Source: Acidimicrobiales bacterium
GTDB lineage: Bacteria; Actinomycetota; Acidimicrobiia; Acidimicrobiales; SZUA-35
Length of the DNA stretch: 64,000 bases
Direction of reading: 5' to 3'
Assembly (NCBI GenBank): GCA_028285495.1
Contig: JANQPB010000027.1
Location: forward strand, 148,239-212,238
A program made the position numbers and the translations under genes. Every line of letters begins with the position of its first letter. Within the stretch, counting starts at the first letter, position 1. A model generated the notes under the pieces. It saw nothing but the letters and a program-made list of their open reading frames with translations. It was not told the origin of the DNA and did no database searches. Shown in pieces: positions 24,618 through 34,980 of this stretch.

Positions 24618-25532
24618 TCAGGGAGCGACGGAGCGGACGGCGGCGGCCACCGCCGCCTGGGTCAGGAGCCGCAGGTGGGCCAGGTCGACGGGGCCGTGCG
24701 GGTTGTCCGGCTCGGGATCGATCTCGCCGGTGGCCGCAGCGACGATGGCATCACCGTCGGCGGCGGTGTGGGCCGGCAGCAGCGACCTGGCCAGGCCATC
24801 GTGGGCGCTCTGGGCCAGCAGGTGGCAGCCCACCTTGTCGAGCCGGGCGTTGGTGACCACGATCCCGATCGTCGTGTTGGTGGCGGTGTCGCCGGCGTCG
24901 GAACCGGCGGCCGCGGCCCCGCCGTCGTCCGGTTCGATCTCGGGACGCTTCGGGGGGCCGATGTCGTCGACCGACGTGCCGTCGTCGACGAAGCCGTAGG
25001 CGTTGACGGCGATCAGCGCCGACACGGTGAACGGGCCGGACCGGCGGGTGGCGGCGCCGATGCCGCCGGGCTGCGGTTCGCCTCCCCACTTGCCGACGGT
25101 GGCCCCGGTTCCGGCCCCGACCAGGCCGACGGCGTGGTCGTCGGTGGTGGCGGCATCGAGGGCCAGGCGCCCCTCGACCGGTCCCGGGCGCACCGTGGCG
25201 TCGCCGACCGCCAGGTCGAACAGCGACAGGCCGACCACGATCGGCACCACGCCGACCCGGGTCTCGAAGCCACGGCCCTGCGCCTCGAGCGCCGGCATGA
25301 CCCCGTCGGCGGCGGCCAGCCCGAAGGCCGACCCACCGCTGAGAACGACGGCGTCGACCGTGGCGACCGTCCGCACCGGGTCGAGCAGGGCCAGCTCCCG
25401 GCTGGCCGGCGCCCCGCCCCTCACCTCACCGGAGGCGACGGTCCCCGGCGGCAGCACGACCACGGTACAGCCGGTTCTGGCCTCCTCGTCGGTCCAGTGG
25501 CCGACGGCCACCCCGGTCACGTCGGTGAGCAC
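24618..25532 (-). CDS. P1 family peptidase (DmpA/NylC-like N-terminal nucleophile hydrolase)
   Basis: 304 residues. The family opens with LTDVTGVAVGHWTDEEARTG and contains VVLSGGSAFGLAAADGVM. The autocleavage site is at NTTIGIVVTNARLDKVG, where the second subunit would begin with the nucleophilic Thr. Relatives include the L-aminopeptidase DmpA, beta-peptidyl aminopeptidase BapA and nylon hydrolase NylC. The natural substrate is unknown. A Gly/Ala/Asp-rich linker (about 210-225) precedes the cleavage site. The GTG at 25532 has a TACGAT hexamer 6 nt upstream. Confidence 0.88.
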   Translation of the reverse strand: MLTDVTGVAVGHWTDEEARTGCTVVVLPPGTVASGEVRGGAPASRELALLDPVRTVATVDAVVLSGGSAFGLAAADGVMPALEAQGRGFETRVGVVPIVVGLSLFDLAVGDATVRPGPVEGRLALDAATTDDHAVGLVGAGTGATVGKWGGEPQPGGIGAATRRSGPFTVSALIAVNAYGFVDDGTSVDDIGPPKRPEIEPDDGGAAAAGSDAGDTATNTTIGIVVTNARLDKVGCHLLAQSAHDGLARSLLPAHTAADGDAIVAAATGEIDPEPDNPHGPVDLAHLRLLTQAAVAAAVRSVAP

Positions 25533-25589: not shown

Positions 25590-26726
25590 CTACGCCGCGG
25601 CCAGGCGGGACTGGACGGCGGCCAGCCGATCGTCGTAGATCTGGCCGACCGAGCCCCAGTCGTAACGCCCCATCGACTCGGCCAGCCCGATCGTCTCGTT
25701 GCGAAGCTCACCGATCCGCTTCACCGCATCGACCAGCCGGGTGCCGAACGTGCCGGGCTCGTAGAGCACGGTGCGATGCCAGGGCGGTCGGATGAGCTCG
25801 GGATAGCTGAGCGCGTCGGGCAGCAGGGGCACGCAGCCGGCGGCCACGGCCTCGACCACGGCGACGCCGAAGAACTCGTGGCGGGCGCAGCTGACCACGA
25901 GGTCGGCCTCGACGAGGTGCCGGAGATAGGTGTCGCGATCGAAGTCGCCGGAGGCCACGATGTGGTCGGCGAAGTCCTTCTCGGCCCGCTCCCGTTCCTC
26001 GGTTGCCATCGTCGATCCGCTCGGCGGGTCCTGACCGGCCAGCACCAGACCGAAGTCGAGCCCCGCATCGCGGACCTTGTCGAGGGCGGTGAGGAACGCA
26101 CCCGGATCCTTGTCCCGCTCCCAGCGATGGGGCCACAGGATGATCGGCCGGTCCTCTCGCTCGGCCCGGGCCCGGCGATCACCGCCGGCCGGGATCGGAC
26201 CGAGATCGACGCCGACCGGGAACACCTCGAACTTGGACAGCACGTTCTCGATCGACGGCTGGTGGGTGTCGTCCGGCAGCGACCGGATGAACCCGGGGAG
26301 GGCGCTGGTGACCGCCCGCAGGTGGTGGTAGCTGTTGAACAGCACGAGGTCGGCGGCACACCACGACATCCAGTTGCGGAGGGCAGCCCCGTTGTCGAAG
26401 TTGCCCTCGGCCACCGGGTAGACCAGCTGGCTCTCGTGCTGGTAGATGACCACGCCGGCATCGGGCGACAGGTTGCGGCGGGCCAGGCCGAGCAGCTCGG
26501 CCACGTCGACGAGACCGGAGACGAGGAGCAGGTCGGGCTGGCCGTTTCGGTCGATCCAGTTGGTGATCGACTCGGCCAGCGGCAGGGCGCCGCCTCGGAG
26601 GCGCCAGCGCCAGAGCTGCCCGGGCAGGCCGACGACGTCGACGTCGTGTCCCGAGCTGGCCCGGTACCCCTCGGCCCAGGCCCGATGGGACCCGCTCAAC
26701 CACGGCTCGACCAGCAAGATTTTCAT
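25590..26726 (-). CDS. DUF3524 GT-B glycosyltransferase, tRNA-queuosine mannosyltransferase (QTMAN/GTDC1)-like
   Basis: 378 residues. The N-terminus MKILLVEPWLSGSHRAWAEG, then LPGQLWRWRLRGGA and YQHESQLVYP, matches the DUF3524 / GTDC1 family. Its mammalian member QTMAN adds mannose to queuosine in tRNA-Asp. The C-terminal GT-B donor half shows ILWPHRWERDKDP and CARHEFFGVAVVEAVAAGCVPLLPDAL, with the E(x7)E nucleotide-sugar signature. I predict a glycosyltransferase acting on tRNA or another small acceptor. I used the ATG at 26726, which has a GGAG ribosome site, rather than the track start 18 nt earlier. tRNA-modification genes (tsa) lie a few kb away, but no queuosine genes are in the window. 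Confidence 0.8.
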   Translation of the reverse strand: MKILLVEPWLSGSHRAWAEGYRASSGHDVDVVGLPGQLWRWRLRGGALPLAESITNWIDRNGQPDLLLVSGLVDVAELLGLARRNLSPDAGVVIYQHESQLVYPVAEGNFDNGAALRNWMSWCAADLVLFNSYHHLRAVTSALPGFIRSLPDDTHQPSIENVLSKFEVFPVGVDLGPIPAGGDRRARAEREDRPIILWPHRWERDKDPGAFLTALDKVRDAGLDFGLVLAGQDPPSGSTMATEERERAEKDFADHIVASGDFDRDTYLRHLVEADLVVSCARHEFFGVAVVEAVAAGCVPLLPDALSYPELIRPPWHRTVLYEPGTFGTRLVDAVKRIGELRNETIGLAESMGRYDWGSVGQIYDDRLAAVQSRLAAA

Positions 26727-26788
26727 CGCCACTCCAATGATCAATCCGCCGGCGAACTGTTACAGACCGCTCGCGACGACCATCGTAG

Positions 26789-28317: not shown

Positions 28318-28962
28318 TCAGCCGAGCAGCCGGTCGAGGACGTCGCCGAGCATGCCGTCGCCGAGGTGGACACCGCCGACCAGGGTCAGGCCGGTGACCA
28401 CGGGCTCGGTCCTGGCCCAGGCCAGGACCTGCCTGGCCTCGTCCTCCTTGCCGGTCCAGGCCGGCCCGCTCAGCCCGTCTGGGCCGCCGAGCACGACTTC
28501 GGACAGGTGGACGGCACCGGGCCCGTCGAGCTCGTCGAGCCAGGGGCCGAGCCAGCGGACCATCGGGGCACCGAAGCCGACGATCACGCCGAGCACCACC
28601 TCGGGCCGGTAGGGCTCCGGGTGCTCACCGGGGTGTCGCCTGAGGGTCTCGAGCCACCAGGCGTCGAGGGCCTCCCCAACCGCAACCCGCTCGGCCGGCT
28701 CCCAGCCGTGGCCACCGAACCGTTCGACCACGGCTGCGGCGTCGGCCACGTCGAGGGTCTGGGTCACGGTCAGCTCGACCAGGCGGGGCGTGGCGGCGAC
28801 CAGCTCGCCCCGGTCGGCCCTGGCCAGCAGCGCGTCGAGGGCGAGGTCGGGCAGGAGGCCGTAGTCGTCGGCCATGAGGGACCACAGGTCGCCGATGGCG
28901 GCGTCGAGCCGGGCGCTGCGACCGATCGGTGCCGGGCCGTCGAGGGGACCGGGGTCGGTCAT
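28318..28962 (-). CDS. Hypothetical protein between acpS and nnr
   Basis: 214 residues with no recognisable domain, signal peptide or membrane helix. Two segments stand out: a helical, acidic N-terminal part with ADDYGLLPDLALDALLARAD, and a C-terminal part with RPEVVLGVIVGFGAPMVRWLG and EVVLGGPDGLSGPAWTGKED. Its ATG overlaps the acpS stop (ATGA), and nnr begins 28 bp downstream, so it belongs to the acpS-nnr transcript. A role near CoA/ACP or cofactor metabolism is only guilt by association. Confidence 0.6.
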   Translation of the reverse strand: MTDPGPLDGPAPIGRSARLDAAIGDLWSLMADDYGLLPDLALDALLARADRGELVAATPRLVELTVTQTLDVADAAAVVERFGGHGWEPAERVAVGEALDAWWLETLRRHPGEHPEPYRPEVVLGVIVGFGAPMVRWLGPWLDELDGPGAVHLSEVVLGGPDGLSGPAWTGKEDEARQVLAWARTEPVVTGLTLVGGVHLGDGMLGDVLDRLLG

Positions 28963-29357
28963 CCTGCGGCCCCCGATGGCGGCCGGCCGGGGCCGAGGGC
29001 GGCGACGAAGGCCTGGGCCAGGTGCTCGGAGTGGGTGATGGTCAGGAGCCAGCGGTCGATGCCGAGCTCGGCCGCCCGCTCGGCGGCTCGGCCGGTGATC
29101 CGCAGGATCGGCTGACCGCTGTCGAGGCGGACGACCTCGATGTCGGCGAAGTCGGCCCCGCCGAGTCCGGTGCCGAGCGCCTTCAGGACGGCCTCCTTGG
29201 CCGCGAACCGGGCGGCGTAGCGCTCGGCCGGGTCCCGGCGGCGCTCGCAGTAGTCGCGCTCGCCGTCGGTGTACACCCGGCCGACGAATCCGGGTTGGCG
29301 CTCGATGACCTGTCGGATGCGGTCGATGTCGACCAGGTCGGTGCCGATGGCGACCAC
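28959..29357 (-). CDS. acpS: Holo-[acyl-carrier-protein] synthase
   Basis: About 132 residues. It transfers 4'-phosphopantetheine from CoA to ACP. The magnesium-binding Asp is in VAIGTDLVDIDRIRQ and the Glu in AARFAAKEAVLKALGTGLGG, both diagnostic of AcpS. The track ORF reads from 31583 through glmS, so the start must be set by hand. I chose the GTG at 29357, one codon before the conserved VAIGTDLVDI, but no good ribosome site is seen. A rare CTG nearer the glmS stop (about 29479) would add about 40 Gly/Pro-rich residues. Confidence 0.85.
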   Translation of the reverse strand: MVAIGTDLVDIDRIRQVIERQPGFVGRVYTDGERDYCERRRDPAERYAARFAAKEAVLKALGTGLGGADFADIEVVRLDSGQPILRITGRAAERAAELGIDRWLLTITHSEHLAQAFVAALGPGRPPSGAAG

Positions 29358-29476: not shown

Positions 29477-32400
29477 TCAGGCGGCGTCCCACCGGGCGGC
29501 CACGTCGGAGATCGGGGCGGTGAGCAGCTCGACGGTCGGGACCTCGGCCAGCAGGTCCTCCCGGAACGACGGCTCTCGCTCGGTCACGACGTCGACGAGC
29601 TGGCGGTACCGGTTGCGGTAGCCCTGGAGGACCGCTCGGGCCGCCGGCGCCCCGAGCCCGTCGCGGAGCTGGACGTGGCACAACGTCAGGCCGGTGGTCT
29701 GGGCGTCCTTGACCTCGGGCACGATCAGCACCACCCGGCCGTCGGTTCCGACGGTGACGAACGGCTCGCGCTCGACCGACACCCGGTGCTTGGTTCCCCG
29801 CAGCGTCGGATCGCGCTCGACCCGGGAGGCGATGCCGGTGGCGATCCCTCCCTTGTCGACGACGTGGAGCTGGGCACCCCGCCCGTGATCGACCCCGGGC
29901 TCGCCCTCCAGCCGGTAGCGGGTGTACCCGGTGATCTCGCCGATGGCCGGGGTGATGGCGGCCAGCGTGCGCAGGGTCCGGTAGCTGAGTCGGTCGCGGG
30001 GGCAACCGGTGGCCAGGACGCCCTGGATGAGGGCGCCCTGGAGGAGGCTCTCGTCGGCCCGGCTGATCCCGACGGTGACGGTCTTGGCCTGGTGCTTGAT
30101 GGCGTCGACGGGCCGGGTCAGCTCCTCGATGGCCGCCGTGAGGGCCAGGGCCAGGTCCTCGACGACGACGCCGGGGGTGCCGACCTTGCCGAACTCGCCC
30201 TGGTAGGCCTCGATCGGCACGGCGCCGGTGGCGAAGCGGAGCAGGGCCGACAGCCGGGTCGCGGTCGAGGCCTCGAGGTGGCCGTTGTAGGTGCCGGACC
30301 GGAGCCCGTCGACGAACGTGGTGGCGTGGGGGGCGAGGTCGCGGCCGAACCGGGCGAACCAGTCGTCGGTGGCCGGGCCGGTGACGGCGGCACCGACGTA
30401 GGTCTCGATGATGCCCCTCGCCTCTCGCAGCGGGCGGGCGGAGCCGTCGATGGCCAGCGCGGCCTCGTAGCCGAACAGGTGGCCGACCACGGTGGAGAGC
30501 ACGAAGGCGAGCTCGGGGTGCACGGCCGGGACGCCGAGCACCTCCAGGGCGGCCGAGAACCGGTGCTCGCCCTCGGTGGCGATCACGATCGGGGCCGCCT
30601 TGTGGGCCCGGAAGATCGCCACCTCCTTGGCCACGTCGTCGGCGTTGGAGCCGCTCAGGCCGGCGGCGCAGATCAGGATCATCGGCTCGGACGAGAGGTC
30701 GATGTGCTTCTTGTCCTCGGTGACGTCGCAGGCGATCGACTTGTAGCAGAGCTCCGACAGCTTGATCCGCAGCTCCCGGGCCGCCACCAGGTTGGCGCCG
30801 TTGCCGACCATGGCCCAGTAGCGCCGGCTGGGGGCGTGGCGGGCGGCGGCGACGCCGATCTCGGGCCGCTTGGCCACCGTGTCGGCCATCGCCGCCGGCA
30901 GGTTGCGGAGCCCGTCGAGCAGGGCCTGCCGGTGGTCCTCGTCGACGGTGGTCCCGGGGAGGCGCTGGGCCAGCCCGTCGGCCAGGAGGAAGCCGGCGGC
31001 GATCTGGGAGTAGAAGGCCTTGGTCGAGGCGACGCTCATCTCGACGTCTCGACCGTCGGACGTGTACAGCACCCCGTCGGACTTGTCGACGAGATCGCTG
31101 CCCCGCCGGTTGACGATGGCGACCACGGCGGCACCACGGGCCCGGCACAGGTCGACGGTGCGATTGGTGTCGGTGGTGGTGCCGGACTGGCTGACGGCGA
31201 CGACGAGCGTGTCGGACATGTCGGCGCCGAGGTGGAAGCCGGACAGCTCGGTTGCGGTGATCGCCTCGACCGGGACCCTGGCCCCGTCGGCCCCGCCGTC
31301 GAGGGCCCGGGTGATGGCGGCGGCGATGGCCTGCCCGGCCACCGCCGCGGTGCCCTGGCCGATGACGAGGACCCGGCTGATGGTGCCGGCCCGGAGCCGC
31401 TTGTCGACCGACTCGACGATCGTCTCGTCCGGCAGCCGGACCGTCAGGGCGCCGTCGCGCTCGATCAGCCGTCCGCGGAGGGTCTTGCGGAACGACGACG
31501 GCGACTCGCCGATCTCCTTGAGCAGGAAGTGGGGGGCGTCGCCCCGGTCGATGTCGCGGGTGGTGACCGACGGCTGCTTCCACTCGTCGGCACCGATCGG
31601 CAGCTCGGTGCCGTCGTAGGAGAGCCGGGTCACGCCCTTCCTGGTGCCGGCCATCGCTCCCCGCAGGCGGATGATCTGGCCCTGACTGCCGGACGGGTTG
31701 TCGGGGTCGGACGGGGTCTCACCGTCCATCCTGAGGTAGACGTCGGAGTCCTCGACCACGCCGTAGGGCTCGGAGGCGACGACGAAGGCGTCCTCGGCCA
31801 GCCCGACGTACACCCCCTGCCCGCTGCCCCGGAGGGCCAGGTGCACGTCGTCGGGTCGCTCGGCGGTGCTGATGCCGATGGCGACCGAGCCCTCGAACTG
31901 GGCGACCGCCGAGCGGACGGCCTCGTCGAGGTCGAGCCCGTCGGTCAGGCCCCGGCTGACCATCGTCGGGATGACCTTGGCGTCGGTGGTGATCTCGGGG
32001 GCGATGGCCAGGCTGTCGGCCGCGATCAGGTCGGCGAAGTTGTCGACGTCGCCGTTGAGGGCGGCGGTGACGTACGGACCCGACCGGTCGCCCACCTCCT
32101 CGGAGTTGACCGGATGGGCGTTCGGCTGGCTGATGATGCCGACCGACGCCCAGCGGGTGTGGGCCAGCACGGTGGCCTCGCCGTCGGCGCCGGCCAGGGC
32201 CCGGTGCAGCAGCCGGTCGGCGGCGATGGCCGCCCGCATCGAGGCCGTGTTGTCGCCGAGCTCACCGATCTCGGCTGCGGCCTTGTAGACGAACCCGAGG
32301 TGGCCGTCGACGATCCGGACCGACCGGTCGATGAACAGCGGGTCGTTGGTCCGGTCGGTGAGGAGATCGGCCACGTCCCCCGAGCCGAGGTCGAGCCCGT

Positions 32401-32974
32401 GGTTGCCGACGAGCACGTGGAGACCGGCCGAGTCGCGGCCCCGGACCTCGAGCCGATCGAGGTTGCTGAGGGCCTGCTGGATGCTGAACAGCGAGGCCAG
32501 CGCCGACGGCGTGAGCTCGCCGGGGCCGCCGGCCGGCGGCGCGCCGTCGGCGAGGGGCCCGGCCAGGTCGACGACCTCGCCGGCGGCGCGGAGCCGGTCG
32601 CGCTCCAACGACCAGGCCGCGTCCTTCAGGGCGACGAGGGCGCCGTTGACCGCCTCGAGATCCGGCACCGTGTCGCCACGGGCCTCGAGCTCACCCTCGA
32701 TGGCGCCGATGCGCTCGTCGATCTGCCCGACGGTGGCGGCGGTGGCGGCGACGAAGGTCGGCGCCGCCACCATGGCGACCAGGCCGGCCTCGCCCCGCAG
32801 CTCCCGGTCGACGGCGGCCAGTCGCTCGCCGGCGTCGAGCAGGCGGGCGGCCAGGTCGGCCTCGGTGCCGGCCGGCACGGCGGCCAACGCGTCGGCGAGG
32901 GCGGCCGACAGGGCGTCGACGTCGGGGATCGGACGGTCGCTGCGGCGCCGGACGATGGCGATGATTCCACACAT
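29477..32974 (-). CDS. Giant GlmS-like glucosamine-6-phosphate synthase (SIS/glutamine amidotransferase)
   Basis: 1165 residues against about 610 for ordinary GlmS, which makes glucosamine-6-phosphate from fructose-6-phosphate and glutamine for cell-wall synthesis. The nucleophile Cys2 is present (MCGIIAIV). About 165 residues of mostly helical insert then precede the rest of the amidotransferase: RGRDSAG (178), AHTRWAS (271), NAHPVNSE (285), LNGDVDNF (306). SIS1 spans about 530-680 (VAVSQSGTTTDTN, SVASTKAF) and SIS2 about 710-850 (CDVTEDKKHIDLSSEPMILI). About 305 C-terminal residues form an extra domain, and the canonical C-terminal SVTVE tail is absent. It follows glmM, so a role in amino-sugar synthesis is likely. 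Confidence 0.85.
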   Translation of the reverse strand: MCGIIAIVRRRSDRPIPDVDALSAALADALAAVPAGTEADLAARLLDAGERLAAVDRELRGEAGLVAMVAAPTFVAATAATVGQIDERIGAIEGELEARGDTVPDLEAVNGALVALKDAAWSLERDRLRAAGEVVDLAGPLADGAPPAGGPGELTPSALASLFSIQQALSNLDRLEVRGRDSAGLHVLVGNHGLDLGSGDVADLLTDRTNDPLFIDRSVRIVDGHLGFVYKAAAEIGELGDNTASMRAAIAADRLLHRALAGADGEATVLAHTRWASVGIISQPNAHPVNSEEVGDRSGPYVTAALNGDVDNFADLIAADSLAIAPEITTDAKVIPTMVSRGLTDGLDLDEAVRSAVAQFEGSVAIGISTAERPDDVHLALRGSGQGVYVGLAEDAFVVASEPYGVVEDSDVYLRMDGETPSDPDNPSGSQGQIIRLRGAMAGTRKGVTRLSYDGTELPIGADEWKQPSVTTRDIDRGDAPHFLLKEIGESPSSFRKTLRGRLIERDGALTVRLPDETIVESVDKRLRAGTISRVLVIGQGTAAVAGQAIAAAITRALDGGADGARVPVEAITATELSGFHLGADMSDTLVVAVSQSGTTTDTNRTVDLCRARGAAVVAIVNRRGSDLVDKSDGVLYTSDGRDVEMSVASTKAFYSQIAAGFLLADGLAQRLPGTTVDEDHRQALLDGLRNLPAAMADTVAKRPEIGVAAARHAPSRRYWAMVGNGANLVAARELRIKLSELCYKSIACDVTEDKKHIDLSSEPMILICAAGLSGSNADDVAKEVAIFRAHKAAPIVIATEGEHRFSAALEVLGVPAVHPELAFVLSTVVGHLFGYEAALAIDGSARPLREARGIIETYVGAAVTGPATDDWFARFGRDLAPHATTFVDGLRSGTYNGHLEASTATRLSALLRFATGAVPIEAYQGEFGKVGTPGVVVEDLALALTAAIEELTRPVDAIKHQAKTVTVGISRADESLLQGALIQGVLATGCPRDRLSYRTLRTLAAITPAIGEITGYTRYRLEGEPGVDHGRGAQLHVVDKGGIATGIASRVERDPTLRGTKHRVSVEREPFVTVGTDGRVVLIVPEVKDAQTTGLTLCHVQLRDGLGAPAARAVLQGYRNRYRQLVDVVTEREPSFREDLLAEVPTVELLTAPISDVAARWDAA

Positions 32975-33223: not shown

Positions 33224-34576
33224 CTAGGGGGAACGGTCGGCCGGGTACGCAGCCTCGGCGGCGGCGACCAGCTCGGCGCAGGCCCGGTCGGCGATGTCGG
33301 GGTCGAGGTGCTCGACCATGATCCGCAGCAGTGGCTCGGTGCCGGATGGCCGGACGAGCACCCGCCCGTCGTCGCCGAACTCGCCCTCCACGGCGGTCAC
33401 CCGGTCGGCGATGGCGGCGGCCGGGTCGTCGACCGGACCGGGGAGACGCACGTTGCGCAGGACCTGGGGGACCCGGTCCATGCTGGCCTCCGCCAGCTCG
33501 GCCAGCGGACGGCCGGAGCGAGCCACGGCGTCGAGGAGCTGCACGCCGGTGAGCACGCCGTCGCCGGTGGTGGCCAGGTCGCGGCAGATCACGTGACCGG
33601 ACTGCTCGCCGCCGAGCGAGAGGCCTCCCGACTCGATGGCCTCCAGGACGTACCGGTCGCCGACCTTGGTCGCCACCACATCGATGCCCTTGGCCGCCAT
33701 GGCCCGATGGAAGCCGAGGTTGGTCATGACGGTGACCACGACGGTGTTGCCCCGGAGCCGCCCCGACCGCGCCCAGTCGGCGGCCAGGAGGGCCAGGACC
33801 CGGTCGCCGTCGACCACCAGACCGGCGTCGTCGACGGCGATCAGCCGATCGGCGTCGCCGTCGAAGGCGAGGCCGGCGGCCGCGCCCTCGGCCACGACGG
33901 CGGTCTGGAGGGCTGCGGTGTCGGTCGATCCGAAACCGGCGTTGATGTTGCGGCCGTCCGGCTGGTCGCCGATCACGACGACATCGGCCCCGAGCCGCCG
34001 GAAGGGCTCGGGCCCGAGCTCGGAGGCGGCGCCGTTGGCGCAGTCGATGACCAACCGCATGCCGCCGAGGGCGTCGGGACCGACCGAGCCGGCGACGAGG
34101 TCGAGCCAGCCGGCCACGCCATGCGAGCTGCGAACGGTGCCGACGTCGGCACCGGCCGCCTGGCCGGACGATCCGGCGCCGAGCAGCTCCAGATACCGGG
34201 CCTCCAGTGCCGCCTGCTCGTCGTCGCCGAGCTTCATGCCACCGGGGGCGAAGATCTTGATCCCGTTGTCGCCGAACGGGTTGTGGGACGCCGAGATCAT
34301 GGCCGCAGCCGCCTTGCGGTCGGCGGCGGCCCAGGCGACGGCGGGCGTCGGCACGACGCCGAGCGGCTCGACGTCGGCGCCGGCCGAGCAGACACCGGCG
34401 GTCAGGGCGCCCTCCAGCATCGGACCGGAGCGGCGCGGATCGCAGCCGACGACGACCAGGTCGCCGCCGAGCACGTCGACGGTGGCCCGGCCGAGGGCCA
34501 GGGCGACCTCGGGGGTCAGCTCGGCGTTGGCCGAGCCCCGGATGCCGTCGGTGCCGAACCGGGGTGCGTCGACCAC
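33224..34576 (-). CDS. glmM: Phosphoglucosamine mutase
   Basis: 450 residues. It interconverts glucosamine-6-phosphate and glucosamine-1-phosphate on the way to UDP-GlcNAc. The catalytic serine loop is MISASHNPFGDNGIKIF, the metal loop is AFDGDADRLIAVD, the sugar-binding loop is GGEQSGHVI, and the phosphate loop is RPSGTEPLLRIMVE. The GTG at 34576 (V-V-D-A-P-R-FGTDGIRG) begins 17 bp after rpsI, whose transcript probably continues into it. The track ORF to 35041 is an over-extension through rpsI. Confidence 0.96.
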   Translation of the reverse strand: MVDAPRFGTDGIRGSANAELTPEVALALGRATVDVLGGDLVVVGCDPRRSGPMLEGALTAGVCSAGADVEPLGVVPTPAVAWAAADRKAAAAMISASHNPFGDNGIKIFAPGGMKLGDDEQAALEARYLELLGAGSSGQAAGADVGTVRSSHGVAGWLDLVAGSVGPDALGGMRLVIDCANGAASELGPEPFRRLGADVVVIGDQPDGRNINAGFGSTDTAALQTAVVAEGAAAGLAFDGDADRLIAVDDAGLVVDGDRVLALLAADWARSGRLRGNTVVVTVMTNLGFHRAMAAKGIDVVATKVGDRYVLEAIESGGLSLGGEQSGHVICRDLATTGDGVLTGVQLLDAVARSGRPLAELAEASMDRVPQVLRNVRLPGPVDDPAAAIADRVTAVEGEFGDDGRVLVRPSGTEPLLRIMVEHLDPDIADRACAELVAAAEAAYPADRSP

Positions 34577-34593
34577 CGTGCCGGGCCGGCGGG

Positions 34594-34980
34594 TTACCGC
34601 TTCGAGTACTGCGGCGCCTTGCGGGCCTTCTTCAGCCCGTACTTCTTGGACTCCTTCTTCCGGGGATCCCGGGTGAGGAGGCCGGCCGACTTCACGTTGG
34701 GTCGGTCTTCGGGGTTCATCTCGACGAGGGCCCGGGTGATACCGAGCCGGAAGGCCCCGGCCTGGCCCGAGAGACCGCCACCGTCGAGGGTGACCGAGAT
34801 GTCGTAGGTCTCCTCGTTGTCGGTGAGGCGGAGCGGCTCGGTGATCAGCGTGCGGTGCACCGCCGACGGGAAGTAGTCCTCGAACTCGCGGCCGTTCGCC
34901 GTGATCTTGCCGGTACCGGGGGTGACCCGGACCCGGGCGATGGCCCGCTTGCGGCGACCGGTTGCCTGAACGCTCGTCAT
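34594..34980 (-). CDS. rpsI: 30S ribosomal protein S9
   Basis: 128 residues, with the [19 protein letters not shown] opening and the basic C-terminal tail ending [12 protein letters not shown] that reaches the decoding centre and contacts P-site tRNA. It sits 35 bp downstream of rplM, the near-universal rplM-rpsI pair, and leads into glmM. Confidence 0.97.

Follow-up and report, generated by a model that had tools for sequence, protein, structure and literature searches.

A nearly double-length probable GlmS of Acidimicrobiia with a predicted internal catalytic tail

Here, we present an analysis of a glmS-type locus in an Acidimicrobiales bacterium, based on a window of 64,000 nucleotides (the whole stretch of DNA analysed; contig JANQPB010000027.1). 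The reverse strand carries a single unbroken ORF that runs from ATG to stop and encodes a protein of 1165 amino acids (Table 1). It is preceded upstream by glmM and followed downstream by acpS and a gene for a fused NnrE/NnrD protein, and it occupies the actinobacterial glmS locus, rpsI-glmM-X-acpS. The normal glmS genes of members of the same order and class lie in the order rpsI-glmM-glmS-(acpS, nnrD)-alr-tsaE, i.e., in the same place as the long form. We found no Rfam match to a glmS ribozyme or another RNA element within the window. Also on the reverse strand, a 214-aa ORF without a Pfam match lies between acpS and the nnrE/nnrD fusion (28318-28962); a predicted tRNA-queuosine alpha-mannosyltransferase (25590-26744; QTMAN_N and glycosyltransferase group 1) is located near the glmM-glmS-acpS-nnr group; and positions 24618-25532 encode a peptidase family S58 (DmpA-type) protein.

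Table 1. Positions of the long glmS-type gene, its predicted protein regions, and its neighbors in the window
Feature	Position	Strand	Basis
glmM (phosphoglucosamine mutase), upstream neighbor, start approximate	33224..34594	-	PGM_PMM I-IV
Long GlmS-type gene, predicted glutamine:fructose-6-phosphate amidotransferase, 1165 aa	29477..32974	-	ORF; glmS profile; GFAT/GlmS folds
aa 1-15: start, catalytic C2 (= Cys1 of the mature protein), first glutaminase strand	32930..32974	-	C2 in 98/98; strand 3-9
aa 16-163: helical insert within glutaminase domain	32486..32929	-	Model helices; no Pfam match
aa 164-405: remaining glutaminase domain (Arg26, Arg73, Trp74, His86, Asn98, Gly99, Asp123 equivalents)	31760..32485	-	Alignments
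aa 406-476: glutaminase-isomerase linker, extended by ~22 residues relative to E. coli	31547..31759	-	Alignments
aa 477-842: two SIS domains, isomerase	30449..31546	-	Alignments; fold TMt up to 0.86
aa 843-953: helical segment, last SIS helix to C-tail	30116..30448	-	Model helices; no Pfam/PDB sequence match
aa 954-975: predicted internal catalytic C-tail, RPVDAIKHQAKTVTVGISRADE, K964 = Lys603	30050..30115	-	Profile, conservation; low pLDDT at 964-976
aa 976-1165: C-terminal alpha/beta domain, PAS/GAF-like element order, plus terminal helices	29477..30049	-	Model; weak folds
acpS (holo-ACP synthase), downstream neighbor, start approximate	28959..29354	-	ACPS Pfam

A chance ORF is excluded because 38 relatives can be aligned with the protein from end to end, at 57-78% identity, and the protein is kept at full length in many Acidimicrobiia-type genomes. 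A scan of a sequence collection with the long GlmS gave at least 524 relatives, of which the best 80 were retained; the titles of these best 80 of at least 524 are nearly all Acidimicrobiia or other actinobacterial. Records with a long GlmS that are titled Bifidobacterium breve, Acidobacteria, or Thermoanaerobacterales (L054, L056, L044, L067) look mislabelled. Against the NCBIfam glmS profile (TIGR01135), the protein scored 197.7 bits over residues 267-841, compared with a curated cut-off of 418.05. This cut-off is missed by all long forms, and they are therefore filed as a GlmS variant rather than as plain members. In a sequence search of the PDB, E. coli GlmS matched the same residues, 267-841, with an E value of 5e-25, and Pfam recognised one SIS domain in the whole protein. 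An AlphaFold2 model of the full-length monomer (mean pLDDT 85.9, pTM 0.79) had human GFAT-1 and E. coli GlmS as its best fold matches in the PDB, with TMt values of up to 0.86 for the isomerase domain. A SIS-type glucosamine-6-phosphate (GlcN6P) deaminase was also considered and rejected: the protein reached 53.5 of 430 bits with the NagB-II profile and 10.6 of 580 with that for GlmD, and its glutaminase domain is intact. The hallmarks listed in the initial annotation, Cys2 (here within MCGI), RGRDSAG, HTRWAS, NGD, and both SIS domains, were all found in the 1165-aa ORF. Based on these sequence and fold comparisons, we predict that the protein is a glutamine:fructose-6-phosphate amidotransferase and consider it very probable that it is catalytically active.

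The additional length relative to E. coli GlmS, counted by hand from alignments, is distributed along the protein. Between the equivalents of Cys1 and Arg26 (E. coli numbering), the long form has 151 extra residues, at approximately 16-163, in agreement with the approximately 150 residues first estimated to lie past the first strand; an insert was indeed present here, but not directly after the catalytic Cys as had also been stated, the strand at 3-9 and the residues up to approximately 15 coming first. A further 49 residues are added between Arg26 and His71, approximately 110 more separate the C-tail from the last SIS helix, and the tail lysine is followed by 201 residues vs 5 in E. coli. The insert at 16-163 is modelled as helices (19-32, 41-59, 61-70, 72-102, and 106-137), mostly at high pLDDT; it has no match in a Pfam search and the lowest conservation in the protein (mean top-residue frequency 0.51). 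The segment at 843-953 is likewise modelled as helices (847-865, 872-892, 902-916, 921-928, and 934-952).

Modelled alone, residues 843-1165 gave a pLDDT of 94 and a pTM of 0.67, and we found no sequence match to this region in Pfam or the PDB. The top fold match of this model in the PDB was a large glutamate dehydrogenase (7jsr; E 0.014), with nothing at E <= 0.001, and many of the weak matches were of the PAS, GAF, LOV, or CACHE type. Comparison with the viral library BFVD gave several GAF proteins, again as weak matches. At 998-1133, the modelled order of elements is helix-two strands-helices-three strands-helix, which we take to fit a PAS/GAF topology. These model comparisons weakly support a PAS/GAF-like fold for residues 976-1165.

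Among 98 relatives, all were invariant for the glutaminase residues Cys1, Arg26, Arg73, Trp74, His86, Asn98, Gly99, and Asp123 and for the isomerase residues Ser347, Gln348, Ser349, Thr352, Val399, Ser401, Lys485, Glu488, Lys503, and His504 (E. coli numbering); Ser347, Gln348, Ser349, Thr352, Lys485, Glu488, and His504 correspond to residues 595, 596, 597, 600, 738, 741, and 757 of the long form. Glu488, His504, and Lys603 have catalytic roles in GlmS (PMC9272926), and the ammonia channel of GlmS is formed by the C-tail together with Trp74 (PMC7948480). Near the active sites, the long form differs from E. coli GlmS by Tyr28Arg, Thr76Ser, His77Val/Ile, Cys300Gln, and Ser303Ala and, in most sequences, by His97Leu. 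Because positions near the active sites are altered in all relatives, the substrate or the kinetics could differ.

In E. coli GlmS, the C-tail is a free chain end, and canonical GlmS proteins of the same phylum terminate in VDxPRNLAK[ST]VTVE. In the long form, residues 954-968 (RPVDAIKHQAKTVTV) fit this motif, including the position of Lys603, and residues 956-969 (PVDAIKHQAKTVTVG) are the counterpart of the canonical tail. When a profile of the canonical tail was slid along the long-form alignment, position 954 scored highest, with a z of 6.2 compared with 3.4 for the runner-up, and its score was reached in 5 of 5000 column permutations. No other 15-mer of the long GlmS is as highly conserved as the tail block (0.995), and the motif is present at 80/80 loci (the best 80 of at least 524 relatives). 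K964, which corresponds to Lys603, is present in 98/98 relatives, and the equivalent of Ala602 is likewise invariant. The initial annotation had held that the SVTVE tail was replaced by an unrelated domain; the motif at 954-968 with its invariant lysine argues that this is wrong and that the tail has become internal. We conclude from the sequence comparisons that the catalytic tail is very probably retained as an internal segment. The low-confidence segments of the model include residues 745-761, i.e., the loop with the His504 equivalent, and residues 964-976 of the tail, and we suggest that these may be mobile parts of the catalytic machinery.

The source genome has a size of 6.75 Mb and is rated 98.8% complete, and no canonical glmS was found in it; the one additional amidotransferase-type match is PurF, encoded beside purC. 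Of the 296 class genomes analysed, 135 had the long form only, 153 the normal form only, none both, and 8 neither, where normal was scored as above the glmS cut-off and long by the C-terminal domain of the long form, with the lists compared by hand; these states follow family lines, and the genomes are therefore not independent counts. Similarly, among 37 chosen genomes, 24 of the 25 with the long form lacked a canonical glmS above the cut-off, which was present in 12 of the 12 without the long form. The sole genome with a long and a normal GlmS (G043, contigs C313 and C155) is a 6.5-Mb bin with 5% contamination and could be mixed. For two genomes of long-form families (G400 and G497), neither GlmS type was found, maybe due to assembly gaps; G400 has a NagB above the cut-off. 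NagB is unlikely to be a general source of GlcN6P in these bacteria; it had no match in many long-form genomes, including five other members of the family of the source genome, although the source genome itself has one NagB above the cut-off. The suggestion that the long protein is the working GlmS is supported by its position beside glmM, the lack of a canonical glmS in the genome, the 0/296 co-occurrence, and the invariant catalytic residues. Accepting these comparative data, the long protein is very probably the working GlmS of the cell.

In a tree built from 601 shared columns of 41 long and 9 normal proteins, the long and normal GlmS form the two sides of one branch, with a support of 100 and a very long distance between them. 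The two oddly titled proteins L054 and L067 group with Acidimicrobiia, and the long forms of three families outside the class (f20, f27, and f50) are nested among those of Acidimicrobiia. In f50, the long gene is located away from glmM; a normal glmS was not found in four f50 genomes and is present in a sister genus. Apparently, this family acquired the long gene horizontally, after which it replaced the normal glmS; such a transfer with replacement is evidence for an equivalent function of the long and normal GlmS. An extra AKSVTV upstream of the long gene in one locus (L139) lies in a chance frame and is no glmS remnant, and a search of plasmids with the C-terminal part gave no match.

Compared with known systems, the long form resembles GlmS/GFAT (TIGR01135; E. 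coli 2j6h) in the order of a glutaminase and two SIS domains, the catalytic Cys, the Trp74 gate, the Glu488/His504/Lys603 set, the tail motif, and the locus beside glmM. It differs in its length of 1165 aa vs the 589-716 aa of GlmS/GFAT subunits (PMC9272926), as well as in having inserts at four places, an internal tail, an extra C-terminal domain, and a profile score under the cut-off. Human GFAT-1 and GFAT-2 also consist of the GlmS core with an extra segment that was proposed to be regulatory; however, this segment is an internal loop of approximately 46 residues (Lys211-Val256 of hGFAT2; PMC7948480), while the long form carries its helical insert after the first strand and a further domain after the tail. 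L-GDH180 of Mycobacterium (7jsr) is similarly a giant form of a small metabolic enzyme, and its PAS/ACT-type and helical additions were proposed to act as metabolic sensors (PMC8175468); its catalytic core is unrelated, and the weak fold match (E 0.014) does not establish a common origin. The C-terminal domain agrees with PAS/GAF sensor domains in the modelled order of elements and has many weak fold matches to domains of this type, but it has no Pfam sequence match to them and no fold match at E <= 0.001.

We propose that the glutaminase half, with its N-terminal Cys, would hydrolyse glutamine, that the two-SIS isomerase half would receive the ammonia through a Trp74-type gate, and that fructose-6-phosphate would there be aminated and isomerised by the Glu488/His504/Lys603 set (here E741, H757, and K964). 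The tail (954-975) would be held between the helical segment (843-953) and the PAS/GAF-like domain (976-1165), and these added domains may govern its opening and closing and, in this way, ammonia transfer and activity. The trigger could be a metabolite or a partner that binds to the C-terminal domain; the added domains may also shape the oligomer. Taken as a whole, an account in which the protein is the GlmS of the cell, with the added domains controlling the closure of an internal tail, appears likely to us. As to its parts, that the added domains control the enzyme is possible to likely. More tentatively, we speculate that the tail is a built-in switch in which a PAS/GAF-like sensor and the helical segment, on a metabolite signal, gate the ammonia channel, which would place amino-sugar synthesis under direct allosteric control across a large lineage of actinobacteria.

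It is similarly conceivable, and for now just as tentative, that the extra domains of this GlmS have a purely structural role, be it in forming a larger oligomer, in stability, or in docking to GlmM or another protein, and exert no allosteric control. The poorly conserved helical insert at 16-163 and the C-terminal fold without a confident match would fit such a role, as would the precedent of the large glutamate dehydrogenase, whose C-terminal domain makes intersubunit contacts (PMC8175468). However, conservation of the C-terminal domain that follows the tail is close to that of the catalytic parts (top-residue frequency 0.68 vs 0.71-0.76), and the added domains flank the mobile tail exactly, on both sides. 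That the protein is instead a related aminotransferase-isomerase acting on another sugar phosphate or making another product is improbable: the very long branch to normal GlmS and the Cys300Gln and Ser303Ala changes adjoining the sugar site could be read in this way, but the long form never occurs with a normal GlmS in the class sample, lies beside glmM, is encoded in many genomes in which no other GlcN6P source (GlmS or NagB) was found, and has an invariant SQSG-T phosphate-site motif along with the three invariant isomerase residues. Least probable by our reckoning is that the internal AKTVTV is coincidental and the role of the tail is taken over by PLREAR (848-853, straight behind SIS2) or lost, with altered ammonia channelling; PLREAR competes for the tail position in the profile alignment, and the global alignment sets the canonical tail on 848-857, but this alignment is no test of the tail position because a jump of 110 residues is penalised, the PLREAR position has a Lys in 1/98 sequences, and the 954 position has a much higher score, the same VD-5-AK[ST]VTV spacing, and is invariant. 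With Trp74 and a tail with its lysine both kept, the initial suggestion of altered channelling through loss of the tail is not supported; the altered regulation suggested alongside it is plausible.

GlmS is an essential and well-studied enzyme and a drug target. What is new in the long GlmS is the architecture, in which the tail is internal and flanked by added domains; a search of open-access papers gave no earlier description of such a protein, although this does not prove that there is none. Because standard profiles miss the long form, automatic metabolic reconstructions could wrongly score GlmS as absent. Altogether, our findings suggest that a wide lineage of environmental bacteria, well represented among the uncultured actinobacteria, apparently depends on a GlmS of nearly double length for making the cell-wall sugar GlcN6P. 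The long GlmS offers a test case for the question of how an enzyme can accept domains before and after its mobile catalytic tail and bring that tail under control, and it hints at a new control of a known antibiotic target.
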